In this document: positions 7,700 to 36,120 of the stretch, in pieces
How the letters are laid out: every line of letters starts with the position of its first letter
How positions within the stretch are numbered: the stretch's first letter is position 1
Assembly (NCBI GenBank): GCA_902799705.1
Contig: CADCBP010000018.1
Location: forward strand, 1 to 36,559
Direction: 5' to 3'
DNA from: an uncultured Bacteroidales bacterium
GTDB lineage: Bacteria; Bacteroidota; Bacteroidia; Bacteroidales; Paludibacteraceae
Length of the DNA: 36,559 nucleotides
The notes under the pieces: generated by a model
Database searches by the model: none
What the model was told of the DNA's origin: nothing
The model's input: the letters and a program-made list of their open reading frames with translations, nothing else
Program-made: the position numbers and the translations under genes

Positions 7700-7845
7700 A
7701 GATGGTATTTGTATGGGCAAAACAGGAAACCGTTTTAGCGGTTCTCAAAAAATGTCCGCGGTGCTTAGTACATGTCCGGCAATATGCGAACATATTTTCG
7801 GTGGGACCCTGTTTATATTTTATAAATAGGGAGGACCGACGTTGC
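7700..7845 (+). ncRNA. candidate structured RNA sharing a hairpin with the 36-kb RNA
   Basis: Hairpins seen: AACCG-TTTTAG-CGGTT (about 7729-7744), ATATG-CGAA-CATAT (about 7781-7794), and at 7798-7839 TCGGT-GGGA, an 11-bp stem beginning CCCT and ending AGGG, then AGG-ACCGA. This last hairpin has the same outer stem and purine-rich internal loop (GGGN opposite AGG) as 36074-36104, while its terminal stem differs completely. A TATGTTTG promoter box lies at 7688-7695 with a weak -33. Transcription and exact ends are inferred. Confidence 0.4.
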
Positions 7846-7848
7846 ACA

Positions 7849-7885
7849 AAAAAAACGACACTCGCAAATAAAAGTGCCATTTTCT
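7849..7885 (-). terminator. terminator-like hairpin
   Basis: CACT/AGTG arms with a CGCAAATAAA loop, and an A-run on the left that gives a U-tract on the minus strand. Its loop and flanks resemble the terminator at 26-63 (CACTTGCAAATAAATGTG), so it may be a decayed relative. Confidence 0.4.
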
Positions 7886-7983
7886 TGTATTTTTGCAGAC
7901 TTTGATCCTTCAGCAACCGAAACGATACCCAAATCAACCTGCTGATTACCATCAAAACGATAGCGAATAAGGGACGAATAAGG

Positions 7984-8016
7984 GGTGCTACAGAGGCGCT
8001 ACAGAGGCGCCACAGA
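7984..8016. repeat. three tandem 11-bp repeats
   Basis: GGTGCTACAGA, GGCGCTACAGA, GGCGCCACAGA in direct succession. The plus frame across them is open for about 45 codons but has no start codon or recognisable domain. Confidence 0.75.
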
Positions 8017-8141
8017 GGCTTCCTAGACTTTGTTCTAAATAATCACGCATAATTTATTTATATTCAATGATTTACAGAGACACAAAATTTACGTAAAATC
8101 ACCCTATTTTGCGATTTCATTTGCCATTTTCTATACATAAA

Positions 8142-8167
8142 AAAATCTGCACTTTGATGCAGATTTT
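8142..8167. terminator. bidirectional terminator after the M20 peptidase gene
   Basis: A perfect 10-bp stem, AAAATCTGCA (8142-8151) with TGCAGATTTT (8158-8167) and a 6-nt loop; A and T tracts form the outer arms. Confidence 0.75.
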
Positions 8168-8172
8168 AGTGT

Positions 8173-8200
8173 TCACCGCTTCTTACGCTGTCGGTGTCAG
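8173..8200. repeat. partial copy of the island repeat at the M20 peptidase 3' end
   Basis: TTCACCGCTTCTTACGCTG followed by TCGGTGTCAGCG resembles the left third of the 77-bp repeats. It lies just past the peptidase stop codon, the same position relative to a gene as the full copies. Confidence 0.5.
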
Positions 8201-8212
8201 CGAGAGTTATTC

Positions 8213-9601
8213 TTAACTTGCAAATTCCTTGTAGAAATCCGTTACTGCCACGATTCCTTTCTCCCAGACCTCGAGGTCCATGGACTCGTTGGGCGAATGG
8301 ATAGCGTTCTGCTCGAGGCCGAAACCCATGAGGATGGTCTTGCAGCCGAGGATGGCTTCAAAGGCGGCGATGATAGGAATAGATCCGCCTCGTCGTGCCG
8401 CGAGCGGTCGTTTGCCGAAAGCTTTCTCAAAACCTTTCTCCGCCGCTTTGTAGGCAGGGATGTCAATCGGGCAGACGTACCCCTGACCGCCGTGCATAGG
8501 AGTGACCTTGACCCGCACGCCCTTCGGCGCGATAGACTGCATATAATCCATAAAAGCACGGGAGATCTTCTCGTGATCCTGGTTCGCCACAAGACGGCAA
8601 CTGACTTTCGCGAACGCCTTGGACGGCAGAACGGTTTTCGAGCCCTCGCCGGTGTATCCTCCCCATATACCGCAGACATCGAACGACGGCCGGCAGGAGT
8701 TACGTTCGAGCGTGCTGTACCCTGCTTCGCCGAAGACATCGTCCACGTCAATGGCGGCATTGTATCTCTCCTGGCTAAACGGAATCTGCGCAATCATGCG
8801 GCGCTCCTCTTCGGGGATGGGAAGTACGTCGTCATAGAACCCGGGGATAGTGATGCGCCCGTTGCTGTCTGTTACTTTCGCCATCATCTCGCAGAGGGCA
8901 TTGACGGGGTTCTTCACGGCTCCGCCGAAATGTCCGGAATGGAGGTCTCTGTTAGGGCCGTCCACTTCTATCTGCCAATACGCGAGGCCGCGCAGTCCGG
9001 TAGTGATAGAAGGGGTGTCCTTGCCGATCATCGAGGTGTCGGAAACGAGGATGATATCGGCTTTGAGCAGTTCTTTATGGTCCTCGAGAAAAGCCTCGAG
9101 TGAAGGGGAACCGATCTCCTCTTCGCCCTCAAAAATGAACTTCACGTTGCAGTTCAACTGACCTGTCTGAGCCATGTATTCAAAAGCTTTGGCCTGAATC
9201 ATCGCCTGACCTTTGTCATCATCCGCCCCGCGGGCATAGAGTCGTCCGTCGCGGATAGACGGTTCCCACGGATCGGACTTCCACTGATCAAGCGGCTCTA
9301 CCGGCATGACATCATAATGGGCATATACAAGGACTGTGGGTATCTCTCCTTCATACTTTAATTCTTTCACTCTTTCATTCTTTACCTTATACTCCGCATA
9401 GACGAAGGGATTGCCCTTACTCGGCAACACCTCTGCACGCTGGCAACCGGCTTCGAGCAGCAGTTCTTTCCACCGCTCGGCACAACGAAGCATGTCGGGT
9501 TTATGTTCCTCTTGACAACTGACACTGGGGATGCGAATCAGACTCGCCCACTCTTCCATGAACCGCGCTTTATGCGCTGCAAGATACTCTTGAATAGTCA
9601 T
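8213..9601 (-). CDS. M20 family metallodipeptidase
   Basis: A 462-residue zinc-dependent peptidase of the M20 dipeptidase (CNDP/PepV-like) type. Metal-site motifs are YAHYDVMP, GRLYARGADDDKGQ (bridging Asp), FEGEEEIGSPS (catalytic and metal Glu) and the C-terminal N-A-I-H-S-P-N-E His. LHSGHFGG marks the dimerisation (lid) domain. No signal peptide, so cytoplasmic. The start at 9601 (MTIQEYL) follows the TACTTTTG promoter box. Around residues 74-85 the segment K-N-E-R-V-K-E-L-K-Y-E-G is encoded by a short tandem repeat (CTTTCATT type) and looks like an expansion that the family lacks. Confidence 0.9.
   Translation of the reverse strand: MTIQEYLAAHKARFMEEWASLIRIPSVSCQEEHKPDMLRCAERWKELLLEAGCQRAEVLPSKGNPFVYAEYKVKNERVKELKYEGEIPTVLVYAHYDVMPVEPLDQWKSDPWEPSIRDGRLYARGADDDKGQAMIQAKAFEYMAQTGQLNCNVKFIFEGEEEIGSPSLEAFLEDHKELLKADIILVSDTSMIGKDTPSITTGLRGLAYWQIEVDGPNRDLHSGHFGGAVKNPVNALCEMMAKVTDSNGRITIPGFYDDVLPIPEEERRMIAQIPFSQERYNAAIDVDDVFGEAGYSTLERNSCRPSFDVCGIWGGYTGEGSKTVLPSKAFAKVSCRLVANQDHEKISRAFMDYMQSIAPKGVRVKVTPMHGGQGYVCPIDIPAYKAAEKGFEKAFGKRPLAARRGGSIPIIAAFEAILGCKTILMGFGLEQNAIHSPNESMDLEVWEKGIVAVTDFYKEFAS
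9352..9386. repeat. 8-bp tandem repeat inside the M20 peptidase gene
   Basis: CTTTAATT-CTTTCACT-CTTTCATT-CTTTACC in succession. It encodes a charged loop (E-R-V-K-E-L-K) just before the conserved P-T-V-L-V-Y strand. Confidence 0.6.
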
Positions 9602-9620
9602 AACAAAAAAAATTATGGCA

Positions 9621-9653
9621 CAAAAGTAGTAAAAATTTTGCATATATGAAAAT
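9621..9653 (-). promoter_or_regulatory. promoter of the M20 peptidase gene
   Basis: -7 box TACTTTTG (complement of 9621-9628). The -33 position holds TTTTC, a weak match. It overlaps the divergent GH13 promoter. Confidence 0.5.
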
Positions 9654-9668
9654 ATTTTTGTATTTTTG
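9636..9668 (+). promoter_or_regulatory. promoter of the GH13 operon
   Basis: -33 TTTTG (9636-9640), -7 TATTTTTG (9661-9668), spacing 20 bp, then CAGCGCAAA as at several other promoters of this window. Confidence 0.7.
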
Positions 9669-9690
9669 CAGCGCAAAAATGTGTTTAACC

Positions 9691-11736
9691 ATGAGAAAAG
9701 TACTATTTTTCGTATTATTAGCCCTTCTTTGGGCAGGTTGTCAACCGAGTAGTAACATCGCGGACACGATCGCCAAGAGCAAGCCTATCATGCCTGTCCG
9801 CATGACAAGCGACACGACTCATGTCGTGCTGACGGACTATGTGCCGGTTTTGTACGGAGACACGACACTTTGGCAGGGTCTGCAATGGACGACAAGCGAG
9901 TCGTTGGAATGTATCAACCTCATCGGCACCCCTCAAGTGGTGCGTGAGATGGATATCGTCAACCGCGACCGCTCGATACACGCCATGACGTTCCATGACA
10001 AGAGCGGCAGTTTCTCCATTCCTGTGTTACCGAACAAACCCGTTCGCCAGGCTCTGATATCGTTGGGTTACGAGAACGATATACTGCGCGTCGGTTTCTT
10101 CGACACGGTTGTCAATCCGAGTTTTGAAGCGTTTGTTCAGAACAGCCTCATCGACCATAGTCTATGGCAGGAAGAGGCGGACGGCACGTGGACGCTGGAC
10201 CTGTCAGCTATCAGTGAGCAGTTAGCAGCTATCAGTGGCCGTAGTTACCTGCGTATCTTTGCGGAGGACGAGACCTACCTCTTCAACGACATGTTATTGC
10301 CGTTGCAGGACGGCAAAGTAGTGACCGACGCATCGCAGTTGGACCGCCATGACCCGCAGGCACAGGTACTCTACTCGCTGCTCGTTGACCGTTTCTATGA
10401 CGGCAACACGTCTAACAACTGGAAGATGAACAGTCCCGAAGTGTTAGACATCGTGGACTATCAGGGCGGTGACCTTGCCGGCATAACAGCCAAGATAGTG
10501 GACGGGTATTTCGACCAATTGGGTGTGAACACCCTATGGATCAGTCCTATTACCCAAAATCCGTGGGACGCATGGGGACGCTATGAGTTCAAGAACGGCA
10601 ACAAATACGACCCGTCGAAAGAATATACAAAGTTCAGCGGCTATCACGGCTACTGGCCGATCTACGCTACTATGTTAGACAAGCGTTTCGGTACTCCGGA
10701 TGAGTTGCGCACCTTATTAGATAGCGCGCACGCGCACGGAATAAACGTGGTGTTGGACTATGTAGCGAACCACATGCATATCAATTCTCCGACCCTTCAG
10801 TCCCACCCGGACTGGCACACCGACTCGATCCTTCCTGACGGCCGGCGTAACTTCGAGTTGTGGGACGAGGCCCGTCTGACGACGTGGTTCGACACACATA
10901 TTCCCTCGCTGGACCTGGAGCGAGAAGAGGTATGCGAAGCGATGACGGACAGCGCACTCTATTGGCTGGAGAACTATCCGTTGGATGGTTTCCGTCACGA
11001 CGCGTGCAAACATATTCCTGAAGGCTACTGGCGCATGTTAGGTCAGAAGATCGCCACCCGCTGGCCGGGTCGTGCAATATGGATGATCGGCGAGACATAC
11101 GGCAGTCCGGAGCTGATCGGCAGTTATGTGAAGTCCGGCATGCTCGATGCACAGTTTGACTTCAACGTCTATTTCACGGCGCGCGAGGCGCTCTGCGGAC
11201 TGAAGGGCATGGACGAGGTGCTGAATAGTGAACTGACCTCCCTCCGCACATACGGTGCGCACCACACGATGGGTAATATCTCCGGCAACCACGACCAGAT
11301 ACGCTTTGCGTCCATCGCCGGCGGCGACATTGATATCACGAGCCAAGGCAAGGAAGAAGGCTGGACGCGCGAAGTAGGTATCGGCGATGCCGAAGTGGCA
11401 TACAAACGCGCGTTGCTGCTCGAGGTGCTGAACATGACGCTGCCCGGCGTACCGTGTATCTACCAGGGCGACGAATACGGAGAAGTGGGCGGTAACGACC
11501 CCGACAACCGTCACATGATGCGCTTCGAGACCCTGAATCCGGACGAGCGTACCATGCGCAATGCTGTGGCACAACTGATTCATCTGCGCCGAAACTCCAT
11601 GCCGCTCCTATACGGCGACTTCATTCCGCTTATCGACCGTCCCGACGAGATCATCTACCAGCGCATCTACTTGGGCGAAAAAGTGACCGTCATCATCAAT
11701 CGGAAAGACTTGAGTTATCAGATCTTGAAGGATTGA
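9691..11736 (+). CDS. GH13 (alpha-amylase family) glycosidase lipoprotein
   Basis: A 681-residue alpha-glucan-active enzyme. A lipoprotein signal (LLALLWAGC) predicts export and lipid anchoring. Residues 20-220 form a non-catalytic beta-rich N-terminal part; the GH13 barrel follows from about residue 225 (Q-V-L-Y-S-L-L-V-D-R-F-Y-D-G). Catalytic residues by motif are Asp437 (GFRHDACKH), Glu468 (WMIGETYG) and Asp535 (GNHDQIR); VLDYVANHMH is the calcium-site strand. The start at 9691 gives a clean signal peptide about 20 nt past the promoter. A 7-bp repeat run encodes part of the N-domain (10205-10239). A second GH13 gene follows after 45 bp. Confidence 0.9.
   Translation: MRKVLFFVLLALLWAGCQPSSNIADTIAKSKPIMPVRMTSDTTHVVLTDYVPVLYGDTTLWQGLQWTTSESLECINLIGTPQVVREMDIVNRDRSIHAMTFHDKSGSFSIPVLPNKPVRQALISLGYENDILRVGFFDTVVNPSFEAFVQNSLIDHSLWQEEADGTWTLDLSAISEQLAAISGRSYLRIFAEDETYLFNDMLLPLQDGKVVTDASQLDRHDPQAQVLYSLLVDRFYDGNTSNNWKMNSPEVLDIVDYQGGDLAGITAKIVDGYFDQLGVNTLWISPITQNPWDAWGRYEFKNGNKYDPSKEYTKFSGYHGYWPIYATMLDKRFGTPDELRTLLDSAHAHGINVVLDYVANHMHINSPTLQSHPDWHTDSILPDGRRNFELWDEARLTTWFDTHIPSLDLEREEVCEAMTDSALYWLENYPLDGFRHDACKHIPEGYWRMLGQKIATRWPGRAIWMIGETYGSPELIGSYVKSGMLDAQFDFNVYFTAREALCGLKGMDEVLNSELTSLRTYGAHHTMGNISGNHDQIRFASIAGGDIDITSQGKEEGWTREVGIGDAEVAYKRALLLEVLNMTLPGVPCIYQGDEYGEVGGNDPDNRHMMRFETLNPDERTMRNAVAQLIHLRRNSMPLLYGDFIPLIDRPDEIIYQRIYLGEKVTVIINRKDLSYQILKD
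10205..10239. repeat. five 7-bp tandem repeats inside the GH13 gene
   Basis: CAGCTAT, CAGTGAG, CAGTTAG, CAGCTAT, CAGTGGC in register, encoding A-I-S-E-Q-L-A-A-I-S-G. The same CAGT-containing heptamers fill several intergenic spacers. Confidence 0.6.
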
Positions 11737-11741
11737 TTTAG

Positions 11742-11762
11742 GGCTTACCGGTTACGGGTTAT
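11742..11762. repeat. 7-bp-period spacer repeat between the GH13 genes
   Basis: GGCTTAC, CGGTTAC, GGGTTAT in succession, 20 bp upstream of the second start codon. Confidence 0.5.
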
Positions 11763-11781
11763 GGATTTAAAATTTGATAGT

Positions 11782-13068
11782 ATGAAAAAGACATTATTGT
11801 TTGCATTGGCTGCACTGGCGCTCGTCAGTTGCGGTCCGGACATTCCGTTGCGTCATCCGAAATTTGCATACGACGCGACTATCTATGAACTCAACGTGCG
11901 TCAGGCAACACCTGAAGGTACGTTCCAAGCCGCCGAAGCACTGCTCCCCGCACTCAAAGATAACGGCATCGACATCATCTGGGTGATGCCCTGTCAGCCC
12001 ATCGGCAAAATCACACGCAAAGGGACACTCGGCAGTTACTACTCTATCATCGACTACTGCGCCATCAATCCGGAATTCGGCACACGCGCCGACTTCGAGC
12101 ATTTTCTCAAAGCCGCTCATAAGAAAGGTTTTAAGGTGATTCTCGACTGGGTAGCCAACCACACGGCACCGGATAGCGAGTGGACCAAGAACGAAGGCTG
12201 GCACTACCGCGATAGTCTGGGAAACCTGATGGTTCAGTATGACTGGACGGATATCTCCAAACTGAACTACGACAACCAAGACATGCGCAACGAGATGCTG
12301 AAATCCATGCATTGGTGGATGGACTCGATAGGTATTGACGGGTTCCGCTGCGACGTGGCAGGCGAAGTGCCGACCGACTTCTGGAACTGGGCTATGGCAG
12401 ACCTGCGCCAGACACATCCGAACATGTTCACCCTCGCAGAGGATGAAGACAAAGCCGATGAACTCACCGAGACAGCCTTCGACATGTATTACGGCTGGAC
12501 GCTGCATCATATTATGAACGAAGTGGCACAAGGCAAGAAGGGTGTGGAAGACCTCTGGGCATACTTTGCGAAAGCAGACACCACCATCCGTCCAGAAGCT
12601 ATCCGTATGAATTTCATCACCAACCATGACGAGAACAGCTGGAACGGCACGGAGCAGGAACGGATGGGCGATGCGGTCAATCTGTTTGCTACATTCTGCT
12701 ACATCGTGCCCGGCATGCCGATGATATACACCGGTCAGATAAGCGGAAACCATCATCGTCTGGAGTTCTTCGAGAAAGACCTGATTGACACCGACGAAGC
12801 CTATGCACAAGGTCCGTTGTACAAACAGTTAAACGCACTGCGTGAACGGAACAAGGCATTGTTCAGCCCGGAGGTGGGTGCACCGCTGGAGCGCATCGCG
12901 TGCGACAACGACGCTATCTTCGCGTGCAAGCGCAGCAAAGAAGGACGCTGGCACACCAACACGGTCATCGCCGTGATGAACATGAGCGACAAAGCGCAAA
13001 GTGTCACATTAGAGAGCGGCGAACACTTCGATCTGCAGCCTTGGGGCTATGAAATCATCGAGCACTAA
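11782..13068 (+). CDS. second GH13 glycosidase lipoprotein
   Basis: A 428-residue GH13 enzyme with signal peptide and lipobox (LALVSC). The catalytic domain begins almost at once (A-T-I-Y-E-L-N-V-R-Q) and there is no N-terminal accessory domain. Motifs: VILDWVANHTA, GFRCDVAGE (nucleophile Asp191), TLAEDED (Glu220) and TNHDENSW (Asp283), followed by a short C-terminal beta domain. It is co-transcribed with the larger GH13 gene, so both probably act on alpha-glucans at the cell surface or in the periplasm. No SusC/SusD genes lie in this window. The start at 11782 begins the signal peptide; the frame from 11761 would add seven residues before it. Confidence 0.9.
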   Translation: MKKTLLFALAALALVSCGPDIPLRHPKFAYDATIYELNVRQATPEGTFQAAEALLPALKDNGIDIIWVMPCQPIGKITRKGTLGSYYSIIDYCAINPEFGTRADFEHFLKAAHKKGFKVILDWVANHTAPDSEWTKNEGWHYRDSLGNLMVQYDWTDISKLNYDNQDMRNEMLKSMHWWMDSIGIDGFRCDVAGEVPTDFWNWAMADLRQTHPNMFTLAEDEDKADELTETAFDMYYGWTLHHIMNEVAQGKKGVEDLWAYFAKADTTIRPEAIRMNFITNHDENSWNGTEQERMGDAVNLFATFCYIVPGMPMIYTGQISGNHHRLEFFEKDLIDTDEAYAQGPLYKQLNALRERNKALFSPEVGAPLERIACDNDAIFACKRSKEGRWHTNTVIAVMNMSDKAQSVTLESGEHFDLQPWGYEIIEH

Positions 13069-13077
13069 ATGACAAGT

Positions 13078-13120
13078 CTGCCATTTTGGCAGTTACATAA
13101 CGATTGGCACGGCGTTTGAT
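13078..13120 (+). promoter_or_regulatory. sigma-54-like promoter and inverted repeat upstream of groES
   Basis: TTGGCAC (13104-13110), 4 bp, then TTTGAT (13115-13120) is close to the sigma-54 -24/-12 consensus TTGGCAC-N5-TTGCA; GG and the T-G of the -12 box are conserved. CTGCC-ATTTT-GGCAG (13078-13092) is a perfect inverted repeat just upstream. No CIRCE element (TTAGCACTC-N9-GAGTGCTAA) is seen. Heat control through sigma-54 is inference. Confidence 0.5.
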
Positions 13121-13198
13121 ACATGGTAAATGGATTTCGGTACTCCGATATACCGATATCCCTATATTTCGATCAATCGTTATAAAAACTAAAATACA

Positions 13199-13474
13199 AT
13201 GAGCAAGATTCAACCATTAGCAGACCGCGTGTTAGTTAAACCTGCGGCTGCAGAAGAGAAAACCGTCGGCGGCATCATCATCCCCGACAGTGCAAAAGAG
13301 AAACCGCTTCGCGGCGAAGTGCTCGCCGTTGGCGAAGGTACGAAAGATGAGGCAATGGTTCTCAAAGTCGGTGACCAAGTGCTGTACGGCAAATACGCCG
13401 GTACGGAACTCGAACTCGACGGAGAGAAATACCTGATTATGCGTCAGAACGACGTGCTGGCGATTGTAAAATAA
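13199..13474 (+). CDS. groES: co-chaperonin GroES
   Basis: The 91-residue heptameric lid of the GroEL chaperonin. It is full length: [12 protein letters not shown] at the start, the mobile loop [18 protein letters not shown], then [13 protein letters not shown] and the C-terminal [12 protein letters not shown]. The groEL gene follows after 117 bp on the same strand, the standard operon. Confidence 0.98.
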
Positions 13475-13570
13475 GGACCGCTTCGCTAAAAGAATAAGGA
13501 ATAATGACAAAAATGAGACCGATAGTAACAAGTCCATTGTCTTTCAGTGAACGAAGTGAACGGTCTGTAA

Positions 13571-15220
<1,650 letters not shown>

Positions 15221-15232
15221 CAAATGCTTCAT

Positions 15233-15277
15233 AAAAAAAAACTCACCTCGGTTACTGCCAAGGTGAGTTTTTTTTTT
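15233..15277. terminator. bidirectional terminator between groEL and the ccsA-like gene
   Basis: Stem ACTCACCT (15241-15248) with AGGTGAGT (15261-15268), flanked by an A8 run on the left and a T9 run on the right; it serves the two convergent operons. Confidence 0.85.
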
Positions 15278-15290
15278 GTTATAGCGTCTG

Positions 15291-25034: not shown

Positions 25035-25076
25035 ATTCAGTAATCAGCAATCAGTAATCAGTTTTCAGTAATCAGG
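25035..25076. repeat. six 7-bp tandem repeats filling an intergenic spacer
   Basis: ATTCAGT, AATCAGC, AATCAGT, AATCAGT, TTTCAGT, AATCAGG without a gap, from one base past the HAD start codon to the stop codon of the next gene. Confidence 0.9.
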
Positions 25077-25515: not shown

Positions 25516-25564
25516 ATTCAGTATTCAGTATTCAGTATTCAGTATTCAGTTTTCAGAATTCAGC
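25516..25564. repeat. seven 7-bp tandem repeats between recR and the membrane protein
   Basis: ATTCAGT five times, then TTTCAGA and ATTCAGC in perfect register. The last unit runs into the recR stop codon. Confidence 0.92.
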
Positions 25565-27610: not shown

Positions 27611-27634
27611 AAGGGTCGAATCAAAAAACGTCGG

Positions 27635-27666: not shown

Positions 27667-27690
27667 TAAACGCGATTATTTTTCACAAAA

Positions 27691-27723
27691 TTTTGCATAT
27701 ATCAAAAAAAAATAGTACTTTTG
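27691..27723 (+). promoter_or_regulatory. promoter of the conserved hypothetical-rsmD unit
   Basis: -33 TTTTG (27691-27695), -7 TACTTTTG (27716-27723), spacing 20 bp, followed by CAGCG. TTTTGCATATAT is also found at the GH13 promoter (9636). Confidence 0.7.
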
Positions 27724-27760
27724 CAGCGAAATTTTGCAAACATATTAAATTTAACCGATA

Positions 27761-28519: not shown

Positions 28520-28535
28520 ACGCATTGCGTTTAGT

Positions 28536-28556
28536 TGAAAGGTGAAAGGTGAAAGA
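28536..28556. repeat. three 7-bp repeats running into the rsmD start codon
   Basis: TGAAAGG, TGAAAGG, TGAAAGA; the last base is the A of the rsmD ATG. The purine-rich GAAAGG could also help ribosome binding. Confidence 0.75.
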
Positions 28557-29086
28557 TGAGAATTATCTCAGGCAAATATGGGGGGCGGCGGTTGTCGCCC
28601 CCTAAAAATATCACCGCGAGGCCCACAACGGATTTTGCGAAGGAGAGTTTGTTCAATCTCCTGAACAACCGCATGGACATGGAAGGCATCGACATGCTGG
28701 ATCTCTTTGCGGGTACCGGCGGCATCGGTATCGAATGTGTCAGCCGCGGTGCACGGGAAGTGACGGCGGTGGAGATCGCGCATGTACAGCAGAACTGGAT
28801 CATCGCCTGCTGCAAACAGCTCGGGATACGCAATCTGTCCGTCATCCGCGGCGATGTATTCAAGTTCCTGAACGCGTGCCGCACCAAGTACGACCTCATC
28901 TTCGCCGACCCGCCTTATGCCTTGGAATCCCTACCTGCTCTGCCCGATAGTATTCTCTCACAAGGAATACTTAAACCCGAAGGCTGGTTGGTGATAGAAC
29001 ACGGCAAAGACACTGACTTCACAAGCCATCCGAATCATGTAGAGACGCGTACCTACGGAAGCGTACATTTCAGTTTCTTCCAATAA
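28556..29086 (+). CDS. rsmD: 16S rRNA (guanine966-N2)-methyltransferase RsmD
   Basis: A 176-residue SAM-dependent methyltransferase that modifies the 30S subunit RNA. R-I-I-S-G-K-Y-G-G-R-R-L at the start, R-P-T-T-D-F-A-K-E-S-L-F-N, the SAM loop D-L-F-A-G-T-G-G-I-G-I-E and the catalytic A-D-P-P-Y are all diagnostic. Full length. A strong bidirectional terminator follows. Confidence 0.95.
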   Translation: MRIISGKYGGRRLSPPKNITARPTTDFAKESLFNLLNNRMDMEGIDMLDLFAGTGGIGIECVSRGAREVTAVEIAHVQQNWIIACCKQLGIRNLSVIRGDVFKFLNACRTKYDLIFADPPYALESLPALPDSILSQGILKPEGWLVIEHGKDTDFTSHPNHVETRTYGSVHFSFFQ

Positions 29087-29113
29087 AAAAAGAGGCGGGC
29101 GCCTCTTTTTTTT
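29085..29113. terminator. bidirectional terminator between rsmD and manA
   Basis: AGAGGC-GGGC-GCCTCT stem-loop with a long A-run on the left and T-run on the right; it serves the two convergent genes. Confidence 0.88.
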
Positions 29114-30107
29114 ATTCTTCCAGGTATATCTCCAGGAGTCTGCATTTTCCTTGGGGTGTGATGCGGATATCATTCAGCGTAGCCGGCACCAGCACGGCTT
29201 CTCCCGTACGCATCGTCACGGACTTATCCTCCGCCTCGCTGTCGAGCGCCTCAATCGCGCATGCTCCTTCTATGCACATGTACGCCACAAAACTATCCAA
29301 GGGCGCGTAGTCACGTTGAGCGGTCGTAGTGAGTGTCAGCAGGTTAACCGTAAAATACGGGGTCTTGCGCAAGTTCACCGCGCCGTTTTCTTTGTCATCA
29401 GGATGTGTCAGTGCGGCATCGTTGTCCGGATGGAAATCCATGACTTGGAGCGCCTTGTCGAGTTTGAGAGGACGCATCCGTCCGTCGTTTCCTACGCGGT
29501 TATAGTCATACAGACGATAGGTGACATCGCTGTTCTCCTGGATCTCCGCCACGATGGTATTGCGACGCATGGCATGCACCGTTCCGGAAGGGATATAGGC
29601 GACATCGCCTGCGCGTACCTTATATTCGCGCAGGTAGCGCGCGAGGGAACCGTCTTGAATGGCGGAATGGATCAAGGATGCATTCATCTCTTTGTTCCAC
29701 CCAAGATAGATAGACGCTTCTTCCGATGAGGGGAGTACGTACCACATCTCTGTCTTCCCGAGGCTCTGCTCGTTCTCCAGAGCGTACTCATCATCCGGAT
29801 GCACCTGTATCGAAAGGTCATCCGTGGCATCGATGAACTTGAGCAGCAAGGGGAAATGGTTACCGAACAGTTCATACACGCGTTCGCCCACCAATTCATC
29901 CATATAAACCTCCAACAAGTCCTGCAGGCTGTCTCCGGCATGCGAGCCGTTGATGACCTCTGTCGGGTATTTCTCTACGTCCGACATCACCCATGCCTCG
30001 CCTACGTTCTCATAGTCGGCGGGCACATGGTCGTACCACTGCTCAATCGTATGCCCTCCCCAAATCTTATGGAAGAGATGCGCCTTGAATTTAAAAGGGT
30101 ATAGCAT
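29112..30107 (-). CDS. manA: class I mannose-6-phosphate isomerase
   Basis: A 331-residue zinc cupin that interconverts mannose-6-phosphate and fructose-6-phosphate. Zinc-site motifs I-Q-V-H-P-D-D, K-T-E-M-W-Y-V and Y-I-P-S-G-T-V-H-A are visible, along with I-W-G-G near the N-terminus and the R-P-L-K-L-D-K-A-L-Q-V region. It lies 40 bp past galE in the same direction, in a sugar-nucleotide neighbourhood. Confidence 0.93.
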   Translation of the reverse strand: MLYPFKFKAHLFHKIWGGHTIEQWYDHVPADYENVGEAWVMSDVEKYPTEVINGSHAGDSLQDLLEVYMDELVGERVYELFGNHFPLLLKFIDATDDLSIQVHPDDEYALENEQSLGKTEMWYVLPSSEEASIYLGWNKEMNASLIHSAIQDGSLARYLREYKVRAGDVAYIPSGTVHAMRRNTIVAEIQENSDVTYRLYDYNRVGNDGRMRPLKLDKALQVMDFHPDNDAALTHPDDKENGAVNLRKTPYFTVNLLTLTTTAQRDYAPLDSFVAYMCIEGACAIEALDSEAEDKSVTMRTGEAVLVPATLNDIRITPQGKCRLLEIYLEE

Positions 30108-30117
30108 CTTTATTAGT

Positions 30118-30138
30118 TGAAAGGTGAAAGGTGAAATC
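30118..30138. repeat. 7-bp spacer repeat between manA and galE
   Basis: TGAAAGG, TGAAAGG, TGAAATC; the first two units and flanks match the rsmD spacer at 28536. Confidence 0.75.
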
Positions 30139-30147
30139 CACTCTCAT

Positions 30148-31179
30148 CTATTTAATATTTCTAATATGTTTCTCCCATTTCCATGCGGAGGCGAGCACTT
30201 CGCGAATAGGTGTGTCTGCTTTCCAGCCCAACACTTCGTTGGCTTTCTTCGGCGCAGCCCATACTTTCTCTATATCTCCTTCACGACGGCCGACGATGGT
30301 ATAAGGGATCTTCACACCCGTAGCGGCCTCGAACTCTTTGATGAGTGTTAGTACACTCAGACCTGTTCCCGTACCGAGGTTGAAGACCTCTACCTGCTCG
30401 CGATCCTTGGCATGGAGCATGCGGTCGATAGCCTTCACATGCGCCTTGGCGAGATCGACTACATAGATATAATCGCGGATACATGAGCCGTCCGGCGTGT
30501 TATAGTCATTACCGAAGACTTTCAGTTCGGGACGCAGTCCGGCAGCAGTCTGGGTAATGAAGGGCAGCAGGTTCTGCGGTACGCCGTTCGGCAGTTCTCC
30601 GATGAGTGCTGAAGGATGCGCGCCGATCGGGTTGAAATACCGCAGGATGGTTGCCTGCAGGTTCTTGTCCGCATGCGCCTCGTCGCAGATGATCTCTTCG
30701 TTGATCTGCTTGGTGTTGCCGTAAGGCGAGAGGGCTTTCTGAATAGGCGCCGTCTCGTCAACGGGCAGATGGGCTGCATCCGGTTGTCCATAGACGGTAC
30801 AGGACGAAGAGAAGACGATATTCGGCACTTGGTGCAACTTCATTACTTCGAGCAGCGTACAGAGACTGCCGAGGTTATTTCGGTAATAGAGCAGCGGTTT
30901 CTCCACTGACTCGCCTACGGCTTTGCTGGCCGCGAAATGAATCACTCCGACGACATCAGGATAAGCGCGGAAGACATTATCGAGGTCCATGAAGTTACCG
31001 CAGTCTATATTCGCAAACTCGGGTTTGCGTCCTACTATCTCGGCGATGCCGTCTAACACGTCGATGGACGAGTTGCTGAGGTTATCCACGATGGTTACGT
31101 CGTAGCCCTGTTGCATCAGTTCCACCGTTGTATGCGATCCTATATACCCGGTGCCACCGGTTACAAGTATTCTTGCCAT
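30148..31179 (-). CDS. galE: UDP-glucose 4-epimerase
   Basis: A 343-residue NAD-dependent epimerase linking UDP-glucose and UDP-galactose. The Rossmann motif is G-G-T-G-Y-I-G-S-H-T, followed by V-D-N-L-S-N-S, F-A-A-S-K-A-V-G-E-S, the catalytic S-S-S-C-T-V-Y-G and Y-G-N-T-K, and R-Y-F-N-P-I-G-A-H. Full length. It is co-directional with the nucleotidyltransferase gene upstream and manA downstream. Confidence 0.96.
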   Translation of the reverse strand: MARILVTGGTGYIGSHTTVELMQQGYDVTIVDNLSNSSIDVLDGIAEIVGRKPEFANIDCGNFMDLDNVFRAYPDVVGVIHFAASKAVGESVEKPLLYYRNNLGSLCTLLEVMKLHQVPNIVFSSSCTVYGQPDAAHLPVDETAPIQKALSPYGNTKQINEEIICDEAHADKNLQATILRYFNPIGAHPSALIGELPNGVPQNLLPFITQTAAGLRPELKVFGNDYNTPDGSCIRDYIYVVDLAKAHVKAIDRMLHAKDREQVEVFNLGTGTGLSVLTLIKEFEAATGVKIPYTIVGRREGDIEKVWAAPKKANEVLGWKADTPIREVLASAWKWEKHIRNIK

Positions 31180-31183
31180 GAGT

Positions 31184-31204
31184 ATTCAGTGTTCAGTATT
31201 CAGA
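31184..31204. repeat. 7-bp spacer repeat between galE and the nucleotidyltransferase
   Basis: ATTCAGT, GTTCAGT, ATTCAGA, the same heptamer family as 25516-25564; the last unit overlaps the stop codon of the upstream gene. Confidence 0.75.
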
Positions 31205-32099
31205 ATAATTTAGCGGGATATTCTCCCTTTGCGATGAGTTGATTGATTTTCATTACCACCTGTGGACGGTCCTCGGCGTAAGTCACTCCGAACCATTTGG
31301 ACGGGGTGTCGAGCACGCGGCAGGTTGCTTTGCCTTCTCCGATGAGCTGGTTCACAAGCGTCGGGATATAGAACTCCGACTTCAGCTCCTGTCCATGCTC
31401 GGCGAGGAAGGTGCGGAAGGCTTTCTCCGTATATTGGAAGTACTCCGGTGTGAAGCCCCACATGTTCATCGACACGGGTGTATGCGGGTCGAGCGGCGTA
31501 TCAACATCGTTCTCGGTGAAGACGATGGTGCCGTTCTTATCCTCTATCTTTGTGCGCTCCACGACATCTGTCAGCAGTCCGTCGGCATCGGTAGTGCAGA
31601 CACCGCGGCTTACTGCGCCGTTCTCGCTGAGGGTGTTGGCAACGCGGTAACCGACCATGCAGTACTTGCCTTCGGTGCCCTCGATTGAACGCAGATAGTC
31701 GGCTAAGACCTGAAAGGACTCGCGGCCGTAGAAGTCATCGGCGTTGATGACGGCAAAGGGTTCATGTATGATATCTTTCGCCATGAGCACGGCATGGTTG
31801 GTGCCCCAGGGCTTGGCGCGTTCAGGGTTGAACGTACAGCCTTCCGGCACTTTGTCTATCGCCTGGAAGCACACTTCGCAGGGCACTTTGTCTGCATATT
31901 TGGACAACACTTTCTCACGGAAGTCCGCCTCGAAATCCTTACGGATGACGAAGACAATCTTGCCGAACCCTGCGCGCAGGGCGTCAAAAACACTGTAGTC
32001 CATGATGGTCTCGCTGTTAGGGCCGAGTCCGTCAAGTTGTTTGAGTCCGCCGTACCGGCTTCCCATGCCGGCGGCTAAGATAAATAATGTTGGTTTCAT
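31200..32099 (-). CDS. sugar-phosphate nucleotidyltransferase
   Basis: A 299-residue NTP-transferase fold protein. The P-loop-like L-A-A-G-M-G-S-R-Y-G-G-L-K-Q-L is the nucleotide site, V-I-N-A-D-D-F-Y-G carries the metal-binding Asp, and W-G-T-N-H-A-V-L is typical. It resembles Bacteroides proteins annotated as nucleotidyltransferase or dTDP-glucose pyrophosphorylase; the sugar is not clear. With galE and manA it forms a small sugar-nucleotide operon. Confidence 0.85.
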   Translation of the reverse strand: MKPTLFILAAGMGSRYGGLKQLDGLGPNSETIMDYSVFDALRAGFGKIVFVIRKDFEADFREKVLSKYADKVPCEVCFQAIDKVPEGCTFNPERAKPWGTNHAVLMAKDIIHEPFAVINADDFYGRESFQVLADYLRSIEGTEGKYCMVGYRVANTLSENGAVSRGVCTTDADGLLTDVVERTKIEDKNGTIVFTENDVDTPLDPHTPVSMNMWGFTPEYFQYTEKAFRTFLAEHGQELKSEFYIPTLVNQLIGEGKATCRVLDTPSKWFGVTYAEDRPQVVMKINQLIAKGEYPAKLF

Positions 32100-32114
32100 A
32101 TCAATTGATTTATA

Positions 32115-32146
32115 ATTTCAAATTTATGATTTCAAATTTATGATTG
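32115..32146. repeat. two 14-bp (2 x 7) tandem repeats upstream of the nucleotidyltransferase
   Basis: ATTTCAAATTTATG occurs twice in a row, then ATTG. Each copy is two related heptamers. Confidence 0.8.
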
Positions 32147-32152
32147 ATTATT

Positions 32153-33262
32153 CTACTCTTCTGTTACGGCTTCCAGTTTGCCGTTGTGCTTGTAATGTTT
32201 AGCCCAGAGTCCATAGACTTCGGAGCAGTTACCGGCGGTGATGAAGGCCTGCAGTTTGCTGTCGCGCACGAAAGCCATGAGGCTGGAGAACTCGTCCTGC
32301 GTGAGCAGCACCTGTATCTCCTTGTGCGCTTCGCCGCTGTAACCGCCCTGTACATCGTACAGCGAGCAGCCGCGCAGCAGTTTCTTGATGATGAACTCGC
32401 GTATGCGCTCGTGTTCATTAGATATAATACATACGCGCTTGCGTTTGTTGAGCGAAGCTGTGAAATAGTCTATCGCCAGTCCGTTGATCCATGTGCCGAT
32501 GATGCCGATGACCACCATGCGGAAGTCGTTGATCAGGAAGGAGGTGCAGCAGATGATGATTCCTCCGATGGCGACCGAAGTGCCGATATCGAAATGGAGG
32601 TATTTATTGACAATCTTGCCGAGTATGTCGAGTCCTCCTGTGGAAGCGTTGATACGGAAGAGGAAAGCCTGGCAGGCGCTGAGTAAGAGCACAAAGCAGA
32701 TGAGGTCGAACCACACATCGGCTATTCCGAGTCCTCCGCTCATCACCGACTCGCGTACCTGCTCCAGCACTTCGCCCGAACGGCTCAGGACGTACGGGTG
32801 TCCGTGCGCATCAAGCACTGTCTGTCCCGCCTGCAGTTGAGCGAGGATGTCGGGATTGTCGATCACCTGATGCGTGAAGTTGGTATTCGGATAGATGCGG
32901 TCCCATAACTGCGTCAACGGACCAAGGATCATTGCTGTATAGACGGTTTTGGCGCCGAACTCATTACCGATCAGCAAGAAGGCCAGTAACAAGAGGAACG
33001 CATTGATACCCATCACAAGATACGAGAAGGTGTCTGCATTGCCTCCGATGAGGGTGTTGAGGACGATGGAGAGACCGGAGATAGAACCGACGATCAGATG
33101 GCTCGGCATCAGGAAATAATAGACCGCGGCAGCGCCGAGACTCATGCCGGCCGTCATCATCAGCAGTTCTTTCCAAAACTTAAGGGTACACAGCGCATGC
33201 CCGAAGGCGTTCAGCAGTTCACGCCAGTACGCTGCAGTGAAATAAATCTTAACGTGTTCCAT
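32153..33262 (-). CDS. YitT family membrane protein with DUF2179 tail
   Basis: A 369-residue membrane protein. There are about five or six membrane helices, the YitT/DUF161 segments G-S-I-S-G-L-S-I-V-L-N, A-S-T-G-G-L-D-I-L-G and G-T-S-V-A-I-G, and a C-terminal cytoplasmic DUF2179 domain (R-V-C-I-I-S-N-E-H-E-R-I-R-E-F-I, R-G-C-S-L-Y-D-V-Q-G-G-Y-S). A soluble loop of about 60 residues (near 125-185) between helices 3 and 4 is longer than usual. The transported substrate is unknown. Confidence 0.88.
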   Translation of the reverse strand: MEHVKIYFTAAYWRELLNAFGHALCTLKFWKELLMMTAGMSLGAAAVYYFLMPSHLIVGSISGLSIVLNTLIGGNADTFSYLVMGINAFLLLLAFLLIGNEFGAKTVYTAMILGPLTQLWDRIYPNTNFTHQVIDNPDILAQLQAGQTVLDAHGHPYVLSRSGEVLEQVRESVMSGGLGIADVWFDLICFVLLLSACQAFLFRINASTGGLDILGKIVNKYLHFDIGTSVAIGGIIICCTSFLINDFRMVVIGIIGTWINGLAIDYFTASLNKRKRVCIISNEHERIREFIIKKLLRGCSLYDVQGGYSGEAHKEIQVLLTQDEFSSLMAFVRDSKLQAFITAGNCSEVYGLWAKHYKHNGKLEAVTEE

Positions 33263-33269
33263 GGTGTTG

Positions 33270-34523
33270 TTATTTTGCTTGCGGTACGCTGTCTTCTTTA
33301 ACGACGAGCCGTGCCGTTCGACGGGTTGTCTGGCTGAGCATGATAGTCCTGTCGGCCTTTGCGCGCTCGAGTATCTCGGGAGTCGTGCCGCGGATTGTCA
33401 GCAGAGACAGATGGTCATTATAGGTTACGTTGAAATGTTGTTTCAGTTCTTCTATCGCCTCGGGCACGAAGCGTGTGTTATCGACGCAAACGGAGATAGT
33501 GACCGCGGAGGACTGTATGAGCGCCACTTTCAGACGATGGCGATGGATGATCTCGAAGATCTCGCTCAGGCTCTCTTCGAGCACAAAGGCGAAGTCTTTG
33601 GCACGCATGGTGATGAGGAGCTGGTTTTTGCGCCAAATATACACCGGCACGTCGATCGGTCCTACACCGTCCGCCGCTATCTTCGACCCTGCCGCCCCGG
33701 GGTCTCCGAAAGGCTTGACGAAGAGCGGTATCTGCTTGTTCTCCAGCGGACGGATGGTCTTGGGATGGATGATCTGCGCGCCGGAATAGCTGAGTTCGAC
33801 AGCGTCTTGATAGCGCAGTGAAGGGATGAGTATCGTGTCGGGTTCGAGGCGCGGGTCGGCATTGAGAATACCCGGCACGTCTTTCCATATCGTCACCGAT
33901 TCGGCATCGAGGTAGTTACCTAATAGTGCGGCGGTGTAGTCTGAACCTTCGCGTCCGAGCGTCGTACGTTTGCCTTCGGCGGTGCCGCCGATGAAGCCTT
34001 GTGTCACGACGATGGACGGTCTGTTGGCTCTCTCCCACCCTGCGCGGATGGTAGCCGCACTCGTCTCGTTGTCCACCTTCGCCTCGCGCCATGTGTTGTC
34101 CGTACGCAGCAGTTTCGGCATGTTCCACCATTCGACGGACAGGCCTTGTTTCAACAAATAGACCGCCACAATCTGGGTGGACATGATCTCGCCGAGGGAA
34201 ACGACTTGGTCGTAGTTCTCGTCCAGCGGTAACTGCGGGTCGAACGGGATCTCTCCTTGCAGGCGGATGTCGGAACCGGGTTGGAGACCCAACTCTTTCA
34301 TGACGGCAACGTGGTAGTCAATGATATCGACCCATTGGTCGAGGGCTTGTTCTTCCTTTCCGGCATCGAGGAACTCCACCACCCGTTCGAGGGCATTCGT
34401 TGTCTTGCCCATAGCAGAAACGACGACCATCAGGTCACCGCCCGCCGCGCGGACGATGGACTCCAGGTTACGGACGCCCGCAGCGTCCTTGACCGATGCT
34501 CCACCGAACTTATAAACCTTCAC
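33270..34523 (-). CDS. lysC: aspartate kinase
   Basis: A 417-residue monofunctional aspartokinase, the first step to lysine, threonine and methionine. K-V-Y-K-F-G-G-A-S-V-K is the ATP-site start, V-V-V-S-A-M-G-K-T-T-N and G-R-E-G-S-D-Y-T-A-A follow, and the C-terminal 110 residues are the ACT region. GTG at 34523 is preferred because it gives the family start M-K-V-Y-K-F-G-G with GGAG just upstream; TTG at 34529 is the longer alternative. A CCTAAA heptamer spacer separates it from ribH. Confidence 0.93.
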   Translation of the reverse strand: MKVYKFGGASVKDAAGVRNLESIVRAAGGDLMVVVSAMGKTTNALERVVEFLDAGKEEQALDQWVDIIDYHVAVMKELGLQPGSDIRLQGEIPFDPQLPLDENYDQVVSLGEIMSTQIVAVYLLKQGLSVEWWNMPKLLRTDNTWREAKVDNETSAATIRAGWERANRPSIVVTQGFIGGTAEGKRTTLGREGSDYTAALLGNYLDAESVTIWKDVPGILNADPRLEPDTILIPSLRYQDAVELSYSGAQIIHPKTIRPLENKQIPLFVKPFGDPGAAGSKIAADGVGPIDVPVYIWRKNQLLITMRAKDFAFVLEESLSEIFEIIHRHRLKVALIQSSAVTISVCVDNTRFVPEAIEELKQHFNVTYNDHLSLLTIRGTTPEILERAKADRTIMLSQTTRRTARLVVKEDSVPQAK

Positions 34524-34531
34524 CTCCAAAC

Positions 34532-34559
34532 CCTAAATCCTAAATCCTAAACCCTAAAC
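34532..34559. repeat. four 7-bp repeats between lysC and ribH
   Basis: CCTAAAT, CCTAAAT, CCTAAAC, CCTAAAC in register, ending 1 bp before the ribH stop codon. They resemble a telomere repeat by chance only. Confidence 0.85.
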
Positions 34560-34560
34560 T

Positions 34561-35037
34561 TTACAGATTCGCCATGTGAATGGCCGTCACAGCGCCTTCG
34601 ACTCCTTTATTGCCTAGTTTGCCTCCACAACGGTCGAGAGCCTGCTGTTTGTCGTTCACCGTGAGGACGGAGAAGACGACGGGCACTTTGCCTTGTGCAT
34701 TAAGGATAGCGACTCCTTGCGTCACGGATTGGCACACGTAGTCGAAATGGGGAGTGTCACCCTGGATGACGCATCCGATGACGATGATGGCGTCGACACG
34801 TTCCTCTTTCATGATGTGAGCGGCGCCGTAAGTCAGTTCCACCGCACCGGGCACATGTACCACATCGATGTTATCGAGGGATACGCCGTGTTTGGTAAGC
34901 GTCTCCACTGCACCGAGCATCATCGGATAGGTGATGTCATTGTTCCAGTCTGCTACCACAATAGCATAGCGCTGACGTCCGAGGACCTCAGCGCTAGGCA
35001 GTTGATTCGCATCGTATTTCGATAAATCAGTAGTCAT
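34561..35037 (-). CDS. ribH: 6,7-dimethyl-8-ribityllumazine synthase
   Basis: A 158-residue enzyme of riboflavin synthesis. V-A-D-W-N-N-D-I-T, the phosphate-binding V-P-G-A-V-E-L-T-Y-G-A, V-I-G-C-V-I-Q-G-D-T-P-H-F-D-Y-V, and F-S-V-L-T-V-N-D-K-Q-Q-A-L-D-R-C-G-G are all conserved. Full length. Confidence 0.96.
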   Translation of the reverse strand: MTTDLSKYDANQLPSAEVLGRQRYAIVVADWNNDITYPMMLGAVETLTKHGVSLDNIDVVHVPGAVELTYGAAHIMKEERVDAIIVIGCVIQGDTPHFDYVCQSVTQGVAILNAQGKVPVVFSVLTVNDKQQALDRCGGKLGNKGVEGAVTAIHMANL

Positions 35038-35072
35038 AGTAATTTACCATTGGGTCATTTACCATGTACGAT

Positions 35073-35756
35073 TTATTCGGCTATAGCGATATATTTGTCG
35101 ATATCCTGCGCCTCTGCGCTCTGCGGGTAGTTGTCTTTGATAGCTTTGAACGCGCGGAGTGCTTTCGCCTTCTCGCCTTCATGCAGATAGACGATACCGG
35201 CTTTCTTCAGGCTCATCGGAGCGATGATCTCGTTGCCGGACTCGGCAGCAGCCTCAAAGGCCTTGGCTGCTTTGCCGAACTCTTCCAGTTCTACGTACGC
35301 GTCACCGAGGAGCTGATGAGCGGCGGGGTTGATGTTCAGGTCGCCTGCGGAGAATTTCTTCAGATACTTGGCAGCCTCTTCGTACTCGCCCTTCTCGAAA
35401 TAGCAGATACCTGCGTAGAGGGCAGCGAGCTCGCCCTGCTGGAAATGTTTGTACTCCTGCGCGATAGCCTCAAAACCGATGCACTCGGCGTCGTCACCGT
35501 TGAGGGCTTTGTCGAAATCGCCGGCGAGGAAATAAGCTTCTGCCTTGGCGTTCTCATTAGCTGCCTCAACAGCCTTCGGCTTGATGACATAGGTGTTGAT
35601 GGCGATGATGCCGATCACTATGACAGCGATACCGCATACGATCCAACTGATGAGGTTAGCGTTGTCCTCAATCCATTTACCGGCGCCTGTCAGCGCTTCA
35701 TTTACTTCTTGCAACTGTTCGTCTTGTTTCTCGAACTCTTGTTTCTTTTTTGCCAT
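35073..35756 (-). CDS. TPR protein with one membrane anchor
   Basis: A 227-residue protein: a charged N-terminal cytoplasmic segment, one membrane helix (about residues 35-53), then tetratricopeptide repeats (A-A-L-Y-A-G-I-C-Y-F-E-K-G-E-Y-E-E-A, A-H-Q-L-L-G-D-A-Y-V-E-L-E-E-F-G-K-A). The layout resembles YfgM-type periplasmic chaperone-associated proteins. In Bacteroidales this gene often precedes ribH. Its promoter is at 35806-35836. Confidence 0.85.
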   Translation of the reverse strand: MAKKKQEFEKQDEQLQEVNEALTGAGKWIEDNANLISWIVCGIAVIVIGIIAINTYVIKPKAVEAANENAKAEAYFLAGDFDKALNGDDAECIGFEAIAQEYKHFQQGELAALYAGICYFEKGEYEEAAKYLKKFSAGDLNINPAAHQLLGDAYVELEEFGKAAKAFEAAAESGNEIIAPMSLKKAGIVYLHEGEKAKALRAFKAIKDNYPQSAEAQDIDKYIAIAE

Positions 35757-35805
35757 ATTATTTGATTGTTTTATTGTTTACAATAATTTTTTTTCAAATC
35801 GGCTG

Positions 35806-35836
35806 CAAAGGTACAACAAAAATTGCACATACGCAA
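35806..35836 (-). promoter_or_regulatory. promoter of the TPR-ribH-lysC operon
   Basis: -7 box TACCTTTG (complement of 35806-35813) and TTG (complement of 35834-35836), spacing 20 bp, followed by CAGCCG. Confidence 0.7.
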
Positions 35837-35880
35837 GTTTTAGAGCGAAAAATTTTAGCAAAGTAGAATTTTATTCTATT

Positions 35881-36120
35881 GTTACGGGTACGGTTGCGCA
35901 CTCGGGTGCTTGCACACGGAGGGCGTAAACGGGCACGGAACATAGGGCGCAGCCCTGCTAAAATTTATCGATCCTCCTTGCGTATGTCCCGCAGGTGGAG
36001 AACTGCCTTGACTTGGCAGTTCGAACGGAAGGAGCAGTGGGGAACGTCGCTCCGACATAGATAAAAACGTACTTTCGGTGGGCCCCGCTTGCGGGAGGAC
36101 CGAAGGTACTGCTTTTTTTT
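35881..36120 (+). ncRNA. candidate structured RNA ending in a strong terminator
   Basis: About 240 nt with no convincing gene. Hairpins in order: GCAC-TCGG-GTGC (35898-35909), AGGGC-GCA-GCCCT (35944-35956), then a multi-branch region closed by TATGTC (35983-35988) with GACATA (36054-36059) that holds GAACTGCC/GGCAGTTC (36000-36022) and GGAGC/GCTCC (36031-36053). The last hairpin (36069-36109) is followed by eight T. The ACGGAAGGAGCAG segment recalls the SRP RNA loop, but the arms do not pair as required. It also fails checks for RNase P RNA and tmRNA. No clear plus-strand promoter is seen; family unassigned. Confidence 0.5.

Follow-up and report, generated by a model that had tools for sequence, protein, structure and literature searches.

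The window analysed here is a stretch of 36,559 nt, positions 1 to 36,559 of contig CADCBP010000018.1 (assembly GCA_902799705.1) of an uncultured Bacteroidales bacterium of the Paludibacteraceae. It carries two hairpins that a sequence-only reading had taken to be a recurrent RNA motif. From comparison with related copies, we conclude that each hairpin forms the right end of one copy of a dispersed, non-coding element, 150–300 nt long and with a sharp left end. The element is probably a non-autonomous mobile one, most likely moving as single-stranded DNA. Its copies are located 3′ of the sequence CAAAnnTAC, and the variable nn of a GTAnn segment at the 5′ foot of the right-end hairpin is complementary, in antiparallel orientation, to the variable nn of this target. 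All of the evidence is sequence comparison on draft genomes, many of them incomplete.

The right-end hairpin and the element behind it

Both hairpins lie where the sequence-only reading placed them, with TCGGT starting at 7798 and 36075 and ACCGA ending at 7839 and 36103. As first described, they share their arms and a GGGN/AGG internal loop, and their inner stems are unrelated. The outer stem is longer than first described, extending to GTAnn...nnTAC. A strict pattern of 16 fixed bases, TCGGTGGG-N(3-33)-AGGACCGA, has seven matches in the genome of the window (G000; 2.3 Mb in 45 contigs) and none in the reversed control. Six plus-strand hairpins fold as RNA with z scores of −1.8 to −4.5 (0 to 11 of 200 shuffles being as good), and three of the minus strands likewise fold, with z of −2.6 to −3.5.

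R1, a covariance model, derives from 14 copies that include the two in the window, so that the scores of these two are high by construction. On the plus strand copy 2 scores 67.2 bits, versus 11.9 on the minus strand, as for a strand-specific, subterminal hairpin of the right end. Conserved G.U pairs of the plus strand become A.C on the minus strand; the plus strand is therefore favoured, either as RNA or as single-stranded DNA. The consensus, from 64 matches giving 56 distinct rows, is GCGAAC-GTAnn-TTCGGYGGGN(1-2)CCC-stem-GGGAGGRCCGAA-nnTAC. Its Y/R pair is U-A in 31 rows and C-G in 18, and inner pairs are seen as U-A, G-C, A-U and C-G. The covariation score is 0.239, versus 0.096 ± 0.009 in shuffles (reached in 0 of 500), and 75 double-change cells are found, versus 31 shuffled. 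Two coarser measures are not beyond shuffles (double-change pairs, 25 of 500; further pair types, 139 of 500), and the covariation counts lean towards the model because the alignment was fitted to it. Weaker matches represent more subfamilies of the same plan: TTCGGGGGG, TTCGAAGGGG and TTCGGAGGG.

R1 matches at E ≤ 0.1 are found in 104 of 151 genomes of the genus, with 13 matches in G000. The loci discussed below are most of the best-scoring ones listed among about 582 model matches in the genus. Across the order, a search with strict filters, in which weak matches are lost, gave matches at E ≤ 0.001 in 2 of 295 genomes, both of this genus. Outside G000, the strict pattern was found once each in 4 of the 36 further genomes of this genus that were scanned, and 24 genomes from other families of the order had no match. 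Its matches in a collection of species genomes were, among the matches listed, mostly in GC-rich genomes and were taken as chance. A scan of viral sequences gave 24 candidate stretches. Thus, a recurrent structural motif with covariation is supported. Absence of further copies and absence of covariation had been named beforehand as grounds for abandoning it, and neither was seen.

The reading as a free-standing RNA motif was dropped because the flanks of the hairpins showed shared element bodies and a fixed left end. The left ends that copies share lie at a small number of set distances from the hairpin, namely about 100, 110 and 195 nt ahead of it. The element extends from nACAAA... to ...CGAAnnTAC, and its parts are, in order, a long hairpin, a middle hairpin, GTAnn, the short hairpin of GGGN/AGG type, and nnTAC. 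The middle hairpin, GTTYGCAC-nnnn-GTGCGAAC, is clear in class-B copies. Two alignments, of class B and class A, show these parts, and compensatory changes are seen in 21 of 36 predicted pairs of class B (30 of 40 sites aligned) and in 13 of 29 of class A (26 of 28 sites aligned). The long hairpin of class A spans the promoter spacer and −33 letters described below, and those letters are therefore part of the element. Folded as single-stranded DNA, the whole window elements give z of −6.5 (copy 1) and −6.8 (copy 2), with 0 of 200 shuffles as good. The proposed module at the 3′ end of small RNAs is instead the right terminus of a dispersed inserted element.

Promoter sites and the pairing of guide and target

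Left ends were anchored from inside the element, without using the preceding letters, in 128 copies; 23 further copies had no anchor. CAAAnnTAC precedes 120 of these 128 left ends, and most of the other eight look mis-anchored by eye. The Bacteroidetes −7 box is TAnnTTTG, the complement of CAAAnnTAC, with a TTTG near −33 (PMC7366714). That is, the element follows the antisense of a −7-like box. For the further tests, 155 hairpins (some fetched twice) were reduced by 36 (18 with no left end, 14 with no right end, 4 with no guide) and by 15 more that repeat a site, leaving 104 sites. Because site independence was judged by left-flank similarity only, shared ancestry among them is reduced, not removed. 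Exactly 19 nt after TAC, a −33-like CAA (the −33 TTG of the other strand) is present in 103 of the 104 elements, and likewise in 24 of 25 parsed uninterrupted promoters of TPR genes (4 of 29 being unparsed). Thus, the first 22 nt of the element place a −33-like box at the native distance, and the rebuilt promoters presumably work. A displaced CAA is found 18–20 nt into 37 of the 104 right flanks, versus 6.3 in shuffles (maximum 15).

Relatives carry the corresponding promoters uninterrupted. For the TPR gene left of copy 2 and for glyA, 30 loci each were read, of 59 and 57 genomes with a match, respectively. In the TPR promoter, the R1 hairpin is present in the window copy and in 0 of 29 relatives. 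The flanks of copy 2, GGCTGCAAAGGTAC ... TGCTTTTTTTTGAATTATGCAAC, read like the uninterrupted promoters of relatives, e.g., L127, in which GGCTGCAAATTTAC is followed directly by TGCTTTTTTTTGATATATGCAAG. The right flank of copy 2 (TGCTTTTTTTTGAATTATGCAA) resembles the spacer of many relatives; a displaced spacer and −33-like box lie 3′ of the right terminus. One of the 29 relatives, L130, has by eye the left part of an element at the same place. In a relative, L131, the spacer is instead like the left end of the element, a possible remnant. At the glyA promoter, the genomes G000, G004 and G061 carry hairpins of three subfamilies at the same −7 box position, and G066 (L445) carries what by eye is a 3′-deleted copy. 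L434 and several others are uninterrupted, and some loci (e.g., L438, L446 and L459) show no such box within the stretch printed.

The key finding is the coupling of guide and target. At the 104 sites, 174 of 208 positions pair, versus 115.5 ± 6.3 when partners are shuffled (0 of 10,000 shuffles). Watson–Crick pairs alone number 140 of 208, versus 78.5 ± 6.1 (0 of 10,000), and shuffling within length class and hairpin subfamily gives 143.7 ± 4.4, again never reaching the observed count in 10,000. Both pairs form at 72 sites, one at 30 and none at 2; the invariant part of the guide is GTA at 91 of the 104. Among twelve offsets compared, the true one has a z of 9.6 and the other eleven lie between −2.2 and 1.7. 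In a scan of 120 element positions (60 per end, all sites), the guide positions rank first and third (z 27.6 and 13.7).

A match of this kind could also arise after insertion, by conversion, or because a longer stem or an effect on the promoter was selected for; it would then say nothing of target choice. The guide does pair, more weakly, with the right end of its own element: 151 of 208 positions, against 141.4 ± 3.3 when shuffled inside subfamilies, where 30 of 10,000 shuffles get to 151. It follows that ends and guide evolve together. The coupling is nevertheless stronger with the left flank and survives the within-subfamily shuffling: at the 61 sites whose left nn is unlike the right nn, 98 of 122 guide positions pair with the left and 75 of 122 with the right. 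An origin of the match after insertion is accordingly reckoned to be unlikely, and target choice by pairing is preferred.

The same observations bear on a transcribed regulatory RNA, i.e., a 5′ leader or small RNA spread by duplication, whose hairpin would bind a protein. Such an RNA would account for the covarying structure and for the G.U pairs on one strand, and the left flanks of nearly all copies resemble promoters of leftward genes. The plus-strand fold, however, is antisense to the promoter that it occupies. In addition, copies occupy a single position within the −7 box, uninterrupted sites are found in relatives, the glyA position is shared by three subfamilies, the guide bases track the target, and Rfam gives no match in the window at E ≤ 1. 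Elements acting as 5′ leaders of the leftward transcript were rejected, since a −33-like box is found in just 37 of 104 right flanks, which is better explained as the displaced old promoter. We regard an RNA role as improbable. A hairpin of single-stranded DNA better explains the fixed end, the uninterrupted sites and the guide-like coupling.

The window copies and their neighbourhood

Both window copies lie outside the 104-site test, copy 1 because the TAC of its right end is TGC, and copy 2 because its length falls outside the parsed classes. By eye, both pair at both guide bases: the TT of copy 1 with target GA (T-A and T.G), and the CT of copy 2 with target GG (C-G and T.G). Table 1 collects the features.

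Table 1. Features of the two element copies in the window
Feature	Position	Strand	Basis
Copy 1 target, CAAA-GA-TAC, antisense of a leftward −7 box (TAnnTTTG)	7591–7599	+	Sequence; rule from 120/128 left ends
Element copy 1, a member of the long class whose left end precedes the model match by 196 nt	7600–7845	+	Related copies; DNA fold, z −6.5
Copy 1 guide, ATA-TT (GTA in most copies)	7792–7796	+	By eye
Short right-end hairpin HP3 of copy 1 (hairpin 1 of the sequence-only reading)	7798–7839	+	R1 match 7786–7851, 59.1 bits
Copy 2 target, CAAA-GG-TAC, antisense −7 box upstream of the TPR gene 35073–35756	35806–35814	+	
Element copy 2, a member of the long class that carries an additional module inside	35815–36109	+	Uninterrupted in relatives
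Long hairpin HP1 of copy 2, approximate limits	35824–35991	+	DNA fold
Extra structured module between HP1 and guide, containing GACATA	35995–36067	+	By eye
Copy 2 guide, GTA-CT	36069–36073	+	By eye
Short right-end hairpin HP3 of copy 2 (hairpin 2 of the sequence-only reading)	36074–36104	+	R1 match 36063–36115, 67.2 bits
Copy 2 right terminus, GG-TAC, pairing with the guide as the base of the HP3 stem	36105–36109	+	

A stretch with ACATA or GACATA pairing had been noted before each hairpin. It does not hold as a general feature: that of copy 2 belongs to the extra module, which by eye is absent from most of the other copies read. A similar module is present in L008/L039, which are one locus. 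Extra modules nested between long hairpin and guide are also seen in L044, L045, L058 and L155. Together with that of the window they comprise at least two unrelated sequences and are possible second-order insertions. L003 (the same place as L432) and L010 are short copies in which the long hairpin is largely gone and the left end, guide and short hairpin are kept; an internal deletion is possible. Tandem copies are found at L093, L094, L095, L096 and L199, the right end CGAAnnTAC of one copy seemingly being the target for the next.

Copy 1 lies within a region, 5230–8202, that looks like a gene-cassette array. Here GTCACCGCTTnTTACGCTGTCGGTG-like repeats at 5230, 5999, 6898 and 8163 are interspersed with small minus-strand genes (DUF4160, KilA-N and a ParE-like toxin), and an 83-nt repeat pair, 6004–6086 and 6903–6985, is 93% identical. 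The GTCACCGCTTnTTACGCTGTCGGTG-like repeat does not fit the attC boxes. Elsewhere in the window, 7-nt units (AATCAGT or ATTCAGT) are repeated between genes at 64–87, 25039–25076 and 25520–25557.

Proposed movement, candidate enzymes and related systems

The proposed movement runs as follows. An enzyme of HUH/Y1 type would hold the hairpin on one strand. GTAnn, as the guide, would pair with nnTAC of a single-stranded target, and the strand would be cut after TAC and then joined, as in IS608. Access to the target might be gained where an open promoter exposes its template strand, and the host might tolerate insertion because the split promoter is restored by the element. Tentatively, we suggest a promoter-homing, DNA-guided family. 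In such a family, GTAnn (extendable to GTAnnTT) would pair with the open −7 box, the element would be joined at the upstream edge of the bubble, its own −33 box would rebuild the promoter, and natural variation of the guide would direct it from one −7 variant to another. Its enzyme would be a HUH transposase so far unrecognised, or some other enzyme that joins single-stranded DNA and is missed by the Y1 models used.

The closest parallel is the IS200/IS605 family (IS608, ISDra2), whose members have subterminal hairpins on a single strand, insert 3′ of a short target, and use a guide 5′ of the hairpin foot. IS608 inserts 3′ of TTAC, which stays in the left flank, and its target is chosen by pairing with the guide and can be changed by changing the guide (PMC5934647). 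The present element differs in having no internal transposase, in the single guide detected, in the varied guides with matching varied targets inside one natural family, and in its sites, which are promoter −7 boxes whose spacer and −33 are mimicked by the left end. We therefore say that it works like an IS200/IS605 end, and do not class it as a member.

Several observations weigh against movement of this kind. The pairing is plain, contiguous and antiparallel, whereas that of IS608 is described in PMC5934647 as a complex network. Covariation with the target about equal to that of the second guide base is also shown by a position in the hairpin that marks the subfamily (z 14.4) and by one at the left end (z 12.9). 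In class A this left-end position has z 5.4, versus 5.3 for the guide, and within classes A and B near-invariant positions rank as high as guide positions; in class C the second guide base falls outside the ten best positions. Right flanks repeat at least 10 nt of the element's left end in 18 of 104 cases (3.1 with shuffled partners, maximum 10), and start with nACAA, as the element does, in 60 of 104. Some of these repeats are tandem copies by eye (L199), and the remaining ones may stem from a longer duplication, or be what is left of a second copy that had used the CGAAnnTAC right end of the first as its site. The displaced −33 is visible in the minority of right flanks given above. Promoter targeting beyond pairing is not proven, because background sites are often promoters anyway: among non-coding AAANNTAC sites, a promoter-biased sample, GC precedes 45 of 83, and CAA is at 19 nt in 50 of 83. 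The remaining points concern the enzyme. R1 at E ≤ 5 found no hairpin within about 1.5 kb of the gene in 30 loci of RAYT-like proteins (REP-associated tyrosine transposases, REP standing for repetitive extragenic palindromic), and none in 33 loci from other Y1/RAYT searches, some of them the same genes. A profile of 14 RAYT-like proteins had no match in the 21 hairpin-bearing genomes lacking a prior RAYT-like hit, and 17 of these 21 also lack an NCBIfam RAYT match at E ≤ 0.1. They include G004 (11 hairpins) and G157 (10), both 96% complete.

In an alternative, these RAYT-like proteins would move the elements in trans as REP-like sequences. The genome of the window encodes RAYT-like Y1 proteins with HUH and tyrosine motifs. 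One such protein (MPDHVHFIL ... YVQINPQR; about 330 residues) has six matches there, is multi-copy in the genus, and is matched weakly by the NCBIfam REP-associated tyrosine transposase model (23.7 bits, cut-off 80). The GTA 5′ of the hairpin foot resembles the GTAG of REPs, as described in PMC6006769 and PMC8266576. Hairpins and RAYT-like genes also co-occur moderately (83 genomes with both, 21 with hairpin only, 26 with RAYT only, 21 with neither; Fisher p = 0.003). Among the 21 exceptions, the NCBIfam model finds an open frame of 255 residues in G069 (62 bits) and fragments in G076; in G117 and G063 its matches are weak and interrupted by several stops, which may mark remnants. On the other side, besides the absence of neighbouring hairpins and of a detectable RAYT in G004 and G157, the genomes G019 and G024, with nine and eight RAYT matches, give no hairpin match at E ≤ 0.1. 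A large C-terminal part is present in the proteins, and subclasses of that kind are not REP-associated according to PMC6006769. RAYT as the cognate enzyme, which was favoured at first, was downgraded in view of the lack of hairpins flanking these genes and of the genes' absence from some hairpin-rich genomes; movement by RAYT in trans is now reckoned a doubtful possibility.

Searches for another enzyme gave the following. PF01797 matches at E ≤ 0.1 were found in 12 of 28 genomes, and the loci examined contained no hairpin. To find an autonomous partner next to the hairpins, 467 open reading frames of 61 loci were clustered; the top family occurs in 7 loci and, judging from its sequence, is probably shared neighbourhood or the element itself. 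The mover of the single-stranded element may be a lost or unrecognised Y1 enzyme. The multi-copy RAYT-like family (L032, 802–1869) has a long conserved C-terminal part and up to 13 matches per genome (G147), many hits matching just the part from about residue 130. Two genomes encode a Y1-domain protein of about 250 residues with the HUH motif GYVH (L244, 1144–1896; L245, 1441–2211), perhaps a domesticated, catalytically altered transposase, next to a gene that we take to be TilS-like.

Mobile DNA acting at promoters is familiar in the Bacteroidales from invertible promoters; here the event is insertion, not inversion. The element is like miniature inverted-repeat transposable elements in being small, non-coding, dispersed and structured. 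It differs from those of DDE type, in that no terminal inverted repeats are seen by eye in the class A and B alignments; its direct repeats are the shared nnTAC, with the longer runs of at least 10 nt in 18 of 104. The integron attC site, a folded recombination site, is called to mind by the paired boxes, the variability of the terminal stem and the weak pairing of the nn spacer, and tandem copies exist. However, no boxes of the consensus GTTRRRY/RYYYAAC are seen by eye, copies occur in promoters of unrelated genes, and attC recombination predicts no complementarity to the target; a relationship to attC is very improbable. REP/RAYT systems (REPtrons) share with the element a short bulged hairpin, a GTA-like motif at the 5′ foot, and many intergenic copies and clusters, and the Bacteroidetes REPtron subclass 2.6 is said to have "atypical secondary structures", both as given in PMC6006769, PMC3733652 and PMC8266576. 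The element differs in its 150–300 nt with two or three hairpins, its defined ends, its CAAAnnTAC target, its GTA plus variable nn in place of GT[AG]G, and the lack of a repeat-flanked RAYT gene in 30 loci (0 of 30). The portions of the open-licence literature searched describe no such elements.

If movement guided by pairing is true, the family would be a natural, large-scale case of target choice by base pairing, with guide and target co-varying within one family. It would also be a transposon that brings along the missing half of the promoter it enters and so makes its insertion harmless. It would offer a testable code, guide nn versus −7 nn, and an approach to the question of whether single-strand transposition gains entry at open promoters.

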